Assembly (NCBI GenBank): GCA_037042185.1
Contig: JAXQJY010000023.1
Span: forward strand, 434,001-498,000
Reading direction: 5' to 3'
DNA from: Sordariomycetes sp. S80-01Y
Lineage: Eukaryota > Ascomycota > Sordariomycetes
DNA length: 64,000 nucleotides
The stretch's first letter is position 1. Each line of letters begins with the position of its first letter. The notes below the pieces were generated by a model. The model searched no databases and was not told the origin of the DNA. It worked only from the letters and a program-made list of their open reading frames with translations. The position numbers were made by a program, and so were the translations under genes. Below, piece by piece: positions 16,212-41,367 of the stretch.

Positions 16212-18214
16212 ATGGACGCTCACGATGCCCTCATCGACTGCTGTGACATGTGGAAATGCTATCCTTGTAACCTGCTACGACCGACACGGCTACAGAGCAC
16301 CCTGGAGAACTATCGCCAGCGCCTCGACGAAAGCGAAAAGCGGCTATTCAGTGCAAAATTTGAGGCAATGAGTTTTTTCGAACTTGATGACGGGGAGAAG
16401 TGTGAGCAAGCCGGTTCTCCCACTGCCCGAAATTCATGCTAAAAGACGGCCATTAGCATACGAGGAAACTGCCATAAGTACCAGCGATGCCCTGCAACAA
16501 CACCTTCTACAGAACAAAAAAGATCCCAGATGCCGGGTCATGTATGTGGTACTTTGAATTCTTTCTGGACTGAGATGCTGATTTTGGCCAGCTCCATCGA
16601 GACCATCGATTCTCGGTCCGCTTTGAAATGCTCTCGCGAAAGCTTTCAATATATGCTCTCTTTCCTTCAGGTCCCATCGAGCTTCTTGGATTTCTCTTTT
16701 TCTTTCGGTTTCACGTCTGAGCCCATAGATTATCACTTGACAGGCTTTCAAGGAGACAAAACACTAGGCCTAGTGCAGAATCGCTCGCTGAGAATCCCTC
16801 GTCTTGGTCGTTCAGGTCTTCAACACCAAATGCAGTACCTTTTGCGATCGGTGGAGCGGTCGAGTAGTCATGATGGGTCTACAACTTGGAACATACGGCA
16901 AATGGCCGTATATCACTCTTTTGACCTGGTAAACGGAAGGTCTCTCTGGATCAACATGAAAACAAACAGTCTGATGAGAGAACGGATACAGGAGGCAGCG
17001 GCTGAGTTTCCCCAGCTCAGTTCGACCGCATTGCATGGCCTACCAGGGTGTTTCGCAGCGACTCTGCTAACTCAGCTCATCTACCTGGAATGGTGCGACG
17101 AAAGTTGGAGACCGTGCATCAATGACATTGAGAAGAAGATTCGCGACACTCTCAACAAGGCCAAAACCGCCAGGGTTGACCAGCGATTAGAGTTCAGCGC
17201 CCTTGCGACCGCCAAGAAGACGCTGACATTGCAAAAGTCCGGCAATACGACCATGGACTTCCACGAGAAGCAGCTCAAAAGACAAGGTGGCAGCAAACTT
17301 TGGCAGCGGCTGGCTACAGCCTGTAGAAAGATGCGTGGGAACAGCAACCATCGCTCTAGCACGCCACGTCCTCGAGGCGTTGGGCATGACGCTTGTACGG
17401 ACAATAGCGAATTTTCAAGGCAGCTCGACAGTCTGCAGGCTCTTGAAAACTTCTCTTTGAGCGAAATGCAAAGTCTCCACTACCTGGGCGAGAAGCTGGA
17501 GAGCTTCCGTCTGGTAATGGAGCTCAACCGGCAAACCCTCAGGGACATCAGAGAGCATTACCAGGATCTAGTAGAGAGCGATGGATTCCCGAAAGATATT
17601 AAGGACGGCTGTAAGCAAGAGCTAGCGGATTTCATGCGGCAACTGGAGCGAGTGAGGAAGAGCCTCGAAGTTCGATCAACTCAAGTGAAGTCTCTGATAG
17701 CATGGCTTCAGGACGGCAAGTCGCTGGTAAGGCGTCTCACTGGTATCTTGGATGCGCTCGAGTGCTGACATGATTAGTTCGATGGAATATTACAGTACCG
17801 GAGTGTCCAAGTCAGCCTAATCTTCGCAGAGAGCTCTCAGGTTCAACAAGGCAATATGGAAGATATTGCGCACAAGACAGAAAAGGAGACTATTTCGATG
17901 CACATCATCACTTTTGTCGCGCTCTTCTTCCTCCCAGCGACCTTCATGGCGGTAAGAAAGCATTGCTATGTGCTAGTTACGGTCGCTACGCAGCTGCTGA
18001 CATTGCTTGCTAGGCATTTTTCCAAAGCGGACTCGTTAAGATCAATGAGGATGCGACGAGTCTCAGGGATGCAGTAACGTTTCATAGCAGCGCTTTCGGT
18101 CTGTTTGCCGCCGTCAGCTTTTCCTTGATGTTCTTCACATTTTTCCTATGGGTTACTCTATTCCTATGTCTTTCACGCAGGGCACTGCCGCGGGGCGGAG
18201 ATGATATTGTCTGA
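16212..18214 (+). CDS. CorA-like transporter-domain membrane protein
   Basis: Five exons: 16212-16401, 16457-16541, 16592-17726, 17778-17951 and 18014-18214, all joined with GT-AG signals and exact phase; 594 aa. It matches the fungus-specific CorA-like family along its length: MWKCYPCNLL near the start, FLDFSFSFG, the HSFDLVNGRSLWINMK segment, ECRES-type helices and the C-terminal FDGILQYRSVQVS. Two transmembrane helices close the protein (MHIITFVALFFLPATFMA and FGLFAAVSFSLMFFTFFLWV), the CorA layout of a long cytoplasmic part plus two helices. The canonical Gly-Met-Asn pore signature is absent; AAFFQSG occupies that place, as I expect for this branch. Transport of magnesium is therefore unproven, and many relatives are linked only loosely to signalling or nonself-type gene sets. 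Confidence 0.87.
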
Positions 18215-18742: not shown

Positions 18743-21618
18743 ATGGCCAGCCACTTGATACTCAAATTCCGAGAATTCGTTAGCCATAAACTCCTTGAAG
18801 GCCAAGATGGCCACGGACGCGCCGCTCAATATGTTCCCCTAGGCCGCCTCGAAGAGTACTGGACGGACTATCATGTTCGCGAACTTCTCGACTCTTCCGA
18901 CCCGCCTATAGCAGAAAATGCACGCCAAGTTCGAACGTCATATTTGCGCGTTTTCTCCATTTTGACATACATTGGACAAACCCGCGACATTGTCTTATTT
19001 GTCGCCAGGAGCAGGGATGATCATCAGCTCCCCTTGGACGACCGCTCATACGAGTGGCTGCCAAGTCTCTCCCTATTCTTAGAGACTCAGTGGATGTTCT
19101 GCCCTCTGGAATTTCCTAGGGATGTGGTATGGAAGCGCCAGCTATCGGCTCAGCAGATTTTGCCGGCCACGTTCGTCGACGGGCCGCTCAGGGAAGAGCG
19201 CAGAGGGCAAGGCGCAGCGCGTATTAGAAAAGTACGCCTGCACGCCGCATGTCATGCTTTGAGTGCAGAGGTAGGTTCCTCATCCGCCTATCAGCTATTA
19301 GTCGTCATGGGCAAATACTGATACTGCAAAGGACGATCTATTCGTGTTCAAGATCTACGAGGGAAGAGGTGGAGAGTCCCTTTACACGGCTGAGTCACAG
19401 ATGTATTCCATGCTGGCTCAGTCAGGCGATAACAGCATCACCGGCTTCTACGGGGCCTTCTCATATGAAGAGACTCAGAGAAGGGTCATCGTCCTAGAAT
19501 ATGCAAAAGGGGGCTCTCTGCTGGATTACTTTCGCAATATCAGTCCGCCTGTGCTGCCCGAAGAGTTCGAGATGCTCTGGCGCCGACTGTTGGACCTCAT
19601 GGACGGGCTCCACACGCTCCACAACTTGAACACAGGGAGAGGGTTTGGTGACTCGCAGGTTGCTGGGTGAGCTTCTCACGCGTAATGGCGCAACGGTTGC
19701 TGACATTAGGCAGGGTCCATATGGATATCCAACCGGCCAACATCCTGGTTTTCCCGCTGTCGGATAAATCGCCATTCGATGTTCGTTTCAAGCTCGCCGA
19801 CTTTGGTGTTTCTGCGGCGAGGCGACTCTTGAAAGATGACACCGTGGCGATAAACGAAGAAGAAGGAAACCGCATGTACTGTGAGTGTTTGCTAACGTGT
19901 TTGGCTTGCTGAAGCTTATCAAAATGGCCCAGCTGCCCCGGAGTGCTACCCAAACCAACCGATTCAAGACAGAGTAAAGACCAACGTCTCCACAGCAGCA
20001 GATATTTGGTCCATGGGCGCAGTCTTTAGTGATGTGCTTGCCTGGTCTATACGTGGTGAGCCAGGTCGCGCAGACTATCGATGCAAACGAGAGGAGGCTA
20101 TTGCTGAGCTCAGTCATCTGAAGGCGAGCGGGTTTGATGCCTGCTTCCACAACGGAGTTGACGAGAGGCTCACTGTAGTCGATGACTTTCACGACGAACT
20201 CCTAAAGCTTACCAGGAGGACTGATGTTATATCTCCTAGCATGCATAACGTCATCTTCGACTACATGCTGACGACTCGTCAAAGGCGACTCAATGCAACC
20301 CAAATCAAGGCGCATGCAGAGGCAGGAATCCAAGGAAGGTCTTCGTCAATGCAGACACGACGTAGAACCGCGGACTCTGTCCCATTTACTGGGAGGCCTA
20401 CACATCTACCACAACACCCGAGACACACAAATCGTGGATTCTCGGAGTACCATCAGCGGGGCCTCCCGGAGGGTTTCGCGAGCCAGCCCCTCTGGCTCAC
20501 GGAAGTCAGCACTCATGAAGCGACTTCGCCTATACACGGGCCGAACTTCCAGGAATCACCGAGTGAGGTAGACACAATCCAGAAAGACCACGGGGCTCGC
20601 CCTGTGGCTTCACGGATGGAAAGTCCTAATCCATCCCAACTGGTGTATCGCCCCGTGGATCACAATCGGAGTCCGTCAATGGCGCAACAACCTTCAGCCC
20701 AGCCGATGACAGGTTCAGAAGCTGTTCCAAACAAGGCTGCTACGCCCGGTCAGGGACACGTTTCTGTTGATAATGTATACGCGATGCTACAAAAGAAGCA
20801 CAGCCGGAGGTCCTTCATTGTCAATACATTGAATAGGATTCAGAGTAAACCCGCTGAGGTAATGGGGCTTCCAGGGATGCAGGAAGCTCGGATCAAACTG
20901 CAAAATCGGAAAGGGCGAGATCAGGAACGTTGGCTTTCTCCGGCGTCTTTTGAACGAAGCTAACAAGAACGTAACAGATCATGCTCATCGACAACTTCTC
21001 TTCGATGAGGCCTCACATGGACAAAGTTATCAAGACTGCCAGTGTCATCAGCTACGTGACGAAAGAAGCTGACAAAGACGGCATGGATCTCTACTTCACC
21101 TCCGACACTGTCAACGCCAAGAAGTGCGCCTCGAGCACCGATGTTGAGTCGGAAGTCAATAAGATGAAGATCGTTGATGGAAGATGCGATATGCGAAATT
21201 GCTTGAACAACATCCTGGAACCTGTTCTGGTGCCCAACATGAGGCCCACAAGCATTTACGTGTACACCGATGCGATCTGGGAGCCCGGCACCCCTGAGGT
21301 GGACGATGTCATTAAGACGTGCATCAAGCACCTCGTCGAGTATAGGGAGCGTTCTTCAACGCTCATGATCCAGTTCATTCAATTTGGAGAGGATGTGGAT
21401 GGGACGGAGCGCCTCCGGCATCTCGACGACGATTGCGCGGAGACCCACGAACTCGGGCGTTAGTAAGTAGTCCCATCCTACCCAAGCCGTTTAGGGGATT
21501 CGGGAGCTGACAAGGCTCCAGCGATATCGTCGACACGAAGCACTGCGAGGATCACGTTCCCGACATTGTAATTGGAAGTATCTCCAGAATTGTTGACGAT
21601 AAAGGGGCGTTGAACTGA
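18743..21618 (+). CDS. Protein kinase with C-terminal von Willebrand A domain
   Basis: Exons 18743-19270, 19332-19666, 19714-19880, 19933-20924, 20978-21462 and 21522-21618; 867 aa if all are joined. Kinase domain about 177-460: Lys183 in FVFKIYEG, alpha-C Glu in YTAESQ, catalytic loop HMDIQPAN (D292, N297; the usual Lys is Gln294), DFG at 317-319, and APE at 345-347. A Ser/Pro-rich linker follows, then a vWA domain from about 675 (IMLIDNFSSM). Its metal site is imperfect: D-N-F-S-S has Phe where Ser is expected. The join between GRDQ and IMLID would need an intron that starts GA rather than GT (gaacgt). If it is not spliced, the protein stops at 20963 with 686 aa and lacks the vWA part. The third intron could also end at 19914 (34 nt), adding six residues. 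Kinase plus vWA fusions are fungal proteins of unknown role. Confidence 0.82.
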
Positions 21619-41286: not shown

Positions 41287-41296
41287 GAAGGCTTTT

Positions 41297-41367
41297 AGCA
41301 ACTCCTGGTTTCGATTCGGGGACTTGCAGGTTATGAGCCCGCCGCTCTACCACCGAGCTAAGTTGCT
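41297..41367 (-). tRNA. tRNA-Met (CAT)-like gene with abnormal T-arm
   Basis: On the minus strand the 71-nt segment folds as a tRNA. The acceptor stem is AGCAACT/AGTTGCT (7 of 7 pairs). The D-arm is GCTC-GGTGGTA-GAGC (4 pairs), and TAGCTCGGTGG is a good A box. The anticodon arm is GCGGG-CTCATAA-CCTGC with anticodon CAT. The T-arm CCCGA-ATCGAAA-CCAGG pairs poorly (3 of 5) and lacks a normal B box. The B-box-like GGTTTCGATTC lies on the opposite strand at that place, as if the arm were inverted. A T14 terminator follows. It is either a functional elongator tRNA-Met with a divergent T-arm or a decaying copy. Confidence 0.6.

Follow-up and report, generated by a model that had tools for sequence, protein, structure and literature searches.

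A candidate GA-AG intron between the kinase and vWA-like halves of a fungal gene

Introduction

Introns that begin with GA and end with AG are rare but known. In Fusarium graminearum, the passage on RNA-seq results places GA-AG introns within an 'other' class of 0.31% (2604 introns in 842 genes), and non-canonical sites of seven genes were confirmed by Sanger sequencing in a passage that names no site classes (PMC3577648). According to the excerpts cited, a natural change to GA in intron 12 of the SYMRK gene of Trema orientalis leaves the gene functional, as was tested (PMC10668435), and the +2T>A variant of ATM formed a working GA donor (PMC12805630). In the copepod Eurytemora affinis, GA and GG donors are described with an obligate AG at the exon end and with A at +3 in almost all cases (PMC5714493). 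For a human FGFR case, a passage of another report states that a canonical site is needed six bases upstream (PMC7072748). Introns of the GA-AG type are easily missed by gene finders, and annotation of a kinase gene containing one would likely split it in two or cut the kinase short.

In this study, we examined a gene of the fungus Sordariomycetes sp. S80-01Y that encodes a kinase followed by a vWA-like domain, with an intron at the junction that begins with GA. The gene is located in a window of 64,000 nucleotides, which is the whole stretch of DNA that was analysed (G000:C6:434001-498000), in a genome of 30,874,049 bases and 16 contigs. As with the F. graminearum case, the host is an ascomycete and the intron starts with GA and ends with AG; the F. 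graminearum introns are known from RNA-seq, whereas the present intron is known from genomic sequence alone (PMC3577648). Trema SYMRK resembles the window gene in being a kinase gene with the second donor base changed to give GA-AG and, as far as the excerpt goes, differs in that it is a plant gene, that the donor in related species is GC, and that its function was tested (PMC10668435). The donors in the excerpts on E. affinis resemble that of the window intron in the AG that closes the exon and the A at +3; among 297 introns of ten curated genes, 36 had such donors, which points to an altered recognition (PMC5714493, PMC7072748); in contrast, the present genome had no genome-wide GA excess and normal U1 starts. 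Kinase and vWA domains also occur in one protein in the alpha kinases with a vWA domain, from which, on the passage cited, the window gene differs in that its kinase matches Pkinase and not alpha kinase, and its vWA-like part is C-terminal (PMC3019232). In pattern searches of literature listings on fungal kinase-vWA proteins, nothing on the present family was seen. We regard the junction intron as a candidate further case of a GA-AG intron and not as a new kind of intron.

Results

Structure of the gene and its junction intron

The kinase-vWA gene was modelled as complete, with four GT-AG introns and the GA-AG junction intron (Table 1). The kinase half matched Pfam Pkinase (PF00069) over the cut-off with 61.5 bits, and solved kinases also matched, with a best E value of 1.1e-6. 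We take HMD...N and DFG in exon 3 to be the kinase catalytic motifs. The GT-AG introns of the gene were 47-61 nt long; introns in this genome are short, with CTAAC branch sites. These introns and the U1 candidates described below identify the genome as eukaryotic, presumably that of a filamentous ascomycete.

Table 1 Features of the kinase-vWA gene (positions in the window).
Feature	Positions	Strand	Remark
Whole gene, ATG to TGA	18743..21618	+	867 aa with all five introns removed
Exon 1: N-terminal region and kinase start	18743..19270	+	
Intron 1, GT-AG, phase 0	19271..19331	+	
Exon 2, kinase	19332..19666	+	Pkinase E 1.1e-16 over residues 202-471
Intron 2, GT-AG, phase 2	19667..19713	+	
Exon 3, kinase residues HMD...N and DFG (presumed catalytic)	19714..19880	+	
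Intron 3, GT-AG, phase 1; RMYSAPE across the join	19881..19932	+	
Exon 4, kinase C-lobe and linker, ends GRDQ	19933..20924	+	
Alternative in-frame GT donor gag|GTAATG, 119 nt to acceptor 20977	20859..20864	+	Weak by genome count
Junction intron, candidate GA-AG, phase 0, 53 nt, branch GCTAAC 20959-20964	20925..20977	+	Homologous to paralogue intron L018:1420-1467
Exon 5, vWA-like domain, from IMLIDNFSSM	20978..21462	+	
Intron 5, GT-AG, phase 2	21463..21521	+	
Exon 6, end of vWA-like domain, DIVDTKHC...DDKGALN and stop	21522..21618	+	Aligns to C-terminus of stand-alone vWA protein L019

The exon upstream of the junction ends with GGGCGAGATCAG, its last letters being GATCAG. The junction intron starts with GAACGT and ends with GTAACAG, and the following exon begins with ATCATG. 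The two exons were joined in frame as GRDQ|IMLID. A sequence-only reading had proposed this junction, and when the letters were read directly, its positions and frames, the GA donor, the branch site and the acceptor all agreed with that description. The intron at 21463-21521, exon 6 and the in-frame GT at 20859 are additional to that reading. Because CAG ends both the exon and the intron, the same mRNA could also be obtained by cutting the segment as GG-CA, AG-AC, or CA-AA. Of the four possible cuts, GA-AG included, none is GT-AG, and GA-AG is the natural choice. In the donor flank, cag|GAACGT, the exon closes with AG and intron position +3 is A, in agreement with the pattern of the E. affinis donors.

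The coding sequence downstream of the junction was intact, with 193 codons to the stop; its first 50 codons had a hexamer score of 21.0, and the intron following exon 5 was canonical. Retention of the junction intron would close the kinase frame after 686 codons, at the TAA at 20961-20963.

A paralogue with a GT-AG intron at the corresponding position

A paralogue was found on another contig (L018, G000:C11:2331200-2334600), with the same layout as the window gene, the kinase coming first and the vWA-like part second. In tblastn against only two fetched loci with the composition correction off, the window protein matched this paralogue in its kinase pieces (E 5e-18) and in its vWA part (E 1e-13); when the whole genome was searched, the E value of the vWA part was 1.3e-4. 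The upstream part of the paralogue matched PK_Tyr_Ser-Thr over the cut-off (24.7 bits) and Pkinase under the cut-off (20.7 and 26.3 bits), and no Pfam kinase match was obtained with its C-lobe piece alone. A genome-wide Pkinase search conducted exon by exon, the result of which is a lower bound, listed neither the paralogue nor the window gene.

The junction intron of the paralogue is 48 nt long, begins with GTAAGT, ends with CAG, and is in phase 0, giving GRDH|IIIIDNSKSM. It is located at the identical residue and phase to that of the window gene (GRDH|IIIID and GRDQ|IMLID, respectively), a comparison with one relative whose splicing is deduced from an in-frame stop and homology. Since the paralogue has a phase-0 GTAAGT intron at the same residue, the segment 20925-20977 is almost certainly a real intron, as the sequence-only reading had claimed. 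The shared residue and phase also suggest that the intron predates the duplication and was formerly GT-AG, in which case the window copy would have changed at the second donor base; a normal GT donor had likewise been considered the likely ancestral state in that reading, and its assignment of the kinase and vWA-like parts to one gene is borne out by the layout of the paralogue. Repeat-induced point mutation is of the C-to-T type, and a T-to-A change is not of that type. With a normal intron at this residue in the paralogue, the locus is a clean natural test of how much of a donor is required by the spliceosome when the flanks are good and the second base is wrong.

The kinase and vWA-like parts might instead be two genes, with the vWA-like protein starting from the ATG at 20981. 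This ATG is indeed in the vWA frame, and a stand-alone one-exon vWA protein is present on C11. However, in the paralogue both parts belong to one frame, connected by a canonical intron at this very residue, and the two frames in the window are 11 bases apart, which would leave little room for a promoter. Relatives in which the kinase and vWA genes are always separate had been named as the finding that would speak against a single gene, and the one relative found here has them joined. We consider two genes hardly credible.

Alternative donors for the junction

Donors were enumerated as GT or GC paired with AG at a distance of 30-220 nt, with both the kinase and vWA frames kept open. Of the 41 combinations obtained, 15 had GT, and five GT donors reached the acceptor at 20977. 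Only the donor at 20859 did so within 130 nt with an open frame. Its use, with the same branch site and acceptor as the GA donor, would remove 119 nt in phase 0 and yield an in-frame kinase-vWA protein of 845 aa lacking 22 linker residues. The claim that the kinase stops at 20963 without splicing holds. The accompanying claim that the vWA domain is then lost is incomplete, since the donor at 20859 could keep the frame.

An upstream GT, most likely that at 20859, might accordingly serve in place of GA, and its duplex with U1 (-5.9 kcal/mol) was somewhat weaker than those of the real donors. However, introns starting with GTAATG showed no excess genome-wide (24 matches versus 43 with the reversed control), the segment removed would include GRD, which is common to the paralogue, and its length exceeds that of the other introns of the gene. 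We regard the use of this donor as quite improbable. In the others, the acceptor lies within exon 5, and the IMLIDNFSSM strand would be spliced out. If the GT at 20929 were paired with the acceptor at 20977, the reading would leave the vWA frame and end after 706 codons. A GT six bases upstream of the GA donor, as in the human FGFR case, was absent from the window gene.

Pairing with U1

In a simple duplex model, the GA site paired with U1 at -2.2 kcal/mol; the values for the four GT donors of the gene were -7.2 to -9.6 kcal/mol, and that for the paralogue donor was -6.8 kcal/mol. Three U1 gene candidates, L040 (C15), L041 (C10), and L042 (C15), were obtained by scoring 41 of 666 first-look candidates. 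None of them reached the Rfam gathering score, and matches under the cut-off were also obtained by this search in 3 of 14 prokaryote controls. Each of the three starts with the normal AUACUUACC, and no tailored U1 5' end was seen among them; a modified U1 5' end has been proposed for one species and does not define GA-AG introns. L040 differs most just after the standard 5' end.

The weak pairing of the GA site is in line with a recent loss of the splice site. The gene would then now give a kinase of 686 residues that lacks the vWA-like part, or an RNA that decays, and the downstream exons would be a young relic that is still open. The stop inside the retained intron also fits such a loss. The 193 downstream codons and the canonical last intron, all intact, speak against it.

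GA introns elsewhere in the genome

When a scan was conducted without a donor constraint, GT could not be separated from the background, and the scan was replaced by filtered counts and a grouping of junctions. The sample for these consisted of the window and C6:1-200000 (264 kb). With the narrowest filter (AG|NNANGT, a CTRAC branch, YAG, and an open spliced frame), seven candidates were left, five with GT, one with GA (the junction intron), and one with CA. A second filter left 27 candidates, comprising 19 with GT, two with AG, two with GA, and one each with GC, CA, AA, and GG. In the whole genome, with overlapping matches counted separately, AGGAANGT..CTAAC..CAG had 10 matches versus 22 for the reversed-pattern control, and the GT version of the pattern had 111 matches versus 30. 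Because the GA pattern was not enriched and non-GT candidates arise by chance in 264 kb, splice-like signals were rejected as proof of an intron. Lineage-wide use of GA as in E. affinis was also rejected, on the pattern counts and the three normal U1 starts.

The 10 GA matches correspond to nine places, and the flanks were read at all nine. Only the junction intron joins long open frames that need splicing, with at least 141 and at least 161 open codons on its two sides, scores of 5.6 and 21.0, and a stop inside the segment. One place (L046) had 31 and 33 open codons, scores of 0.6 and 5.8, and a 39-nt segment with a stop; another (L044) had 77 and 119 open codons and an upstream score of -10.1, that is, no coding signal; and a third (L050) had positive scores but an uninterrupted frame. 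Accordingly, no other supported GA intron was found at the nine pattern places genome-wide, which is also in line with a lost splice site at the junction.

As a control, junctions were collected from the 264-kb sample if each of their two sides had 100 or more open codons and scored above 3. An in-frame GT at 40-75 nt was present in 20 of the 24 junctions, including C6 188760 and, weakly, that at 83245 on the minus strand of C6; we estimate that about half of the junctions would have a GT at this distance by chance, and the 20 of 24 are weak evidence when taken alone. The four junctions without such a GT were the GA intron, C6 180399, C6 minus-strand 56479, and window 36620. The junction at C6 180399 was canonical in the other downstream frame, that at C6 minus-strand 56479 had a GT 34 nt away, below the 40-nt floor, and that at window 36620 is probably a false junction, as a better frame lies on the opposite strand. 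The junction at C6 180399, which belongs to a Vps39-type gene (C6:180353-180400), was considered as a second non-canonical intron and was ruled out by full enumeration, which gave GT-AG. This gene (L038, with Vps39_1 and zf-Vps39_C), located outside the window, has a canonical intron of 48 nt, GTAGGT..GTGCAG, at C6:180352-180399, joining AEE|YCNRVHL.

The GA intron therefore stood alone in the 264-kb sample, as would be equally expected of a rare GA donor that works, of a private mutation, and of a base-call error. If the A at 20926 resulted from an assembly or base-call error, the strain would have a normal GT donor. The GA site is one base away from AGGTACGT, a donor form seen at at least 25 places among the GT matches listed; the rest of the intron and the gene are normal, and GA is unique among the supported introns examined. 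On the other hand, the letters at the GA donor include no homopolymer. We consider such an error rather unlikely.

The vWA-like half

A Pfam search of the window gene copy gave no vWA match, and its vWA name is supported indirectly, through homology to a stand-alone vWA protein. The second half matched this protein, L019, with an E value of 2.7e-6 in the genome search and 2.3e-12 in tblastn against only the two fetched loci. L019 is a one-exon protein encoded on the minus strand at G000:C11:1628503-1629045, is related to the C-terminal half of the window gene, and matched PF00092 with an E value of 3.2e-8. The vWA-like part of the paralogue matched VWA_2 with an E value of 0.16, below the cut-off. 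A PDB profile search with an alignment (A1) gave four weak matches, with no vWA structure among them. When viral contigs were searched with this alignment and genome contigs with the vWA exon, both being poor sources of fungal sequences, 118 pattern-matching stretches and 25 stretches, respectively, were obtained; none was confirmed, and these searches thus gave no relative outside the present genome.

DxSxS is the metal-site motif of vWA domains. The window copy has DNFSS (20990-21004) in place of DxSxS, whereas the motif is conserved in the paralogue (DNSKS) and reads DDSGS in L019. Judging from these letters, the vWA-like domain of the window copy may not bind metal, and the change possibly reflects relaxed constraint. 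A vWA part already changed at a conserved serine would also be in keeping with a recent loss of the splice site.

Fate of the junction intron

Taken together, these findings indicate that the segment 20925-20977 is an ordinary, old U2-type spliceosomal intron lying between the kinase and vWA-like halves of one gene, with GA now at its 5' end and GT at that of the paralogue intron. We propose that the normal spliceosome may still remove it as GA-AG at least part of the time, perhaps inefficiently. Several features would assist the use of the GA donor: the exon closes with AG, position +3 is A and positions +5/+6 are GT, and the intron is short, with a GCTAAC branch and a good acceptor. Transcripts keeping the intron would end after the 686th codon, with a kinase-only product or decay as the consequence. 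Continued, perhaps inefficient, splicing is favoured because the flanks fit the rule for GA donors and the downstream codons are open; the weak U1 pairing, the lack of a tailored U1 or a GA excess, and the DNFSS change count against it. We hold this reading tentatively, with a probability of about 0.4 that the junction intron is still removed as GA-AG at least in part.

Regarding the recent loss of the splice site, the exon context is the one that, in the excerpt cited, E. affinis GA donors need, and a random loss need not show it (PMC5714493). We consider this loss unlikely, with the points on its side given above; if the splice has been lost, the locus would show a gene fusion in the course of breaking up. 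The GA donor might also be kept as a deliberately weak switch, the retained intron giving a kinase-only protein and the spliced form a kinase-vWA protein in a ratio set by conditions, which seems a long shot.

Other features of the window

Upstream of the kinase gene, ORFs at 16443-18214 include a hydrophobic stretch, FVALFFLPATFMA, which presumably resembles fungal CorA-like membrane proteins. A tRNA-Met gene on the minus strand at 41296-41367 was the only Rfam match over the gathering score in the window.
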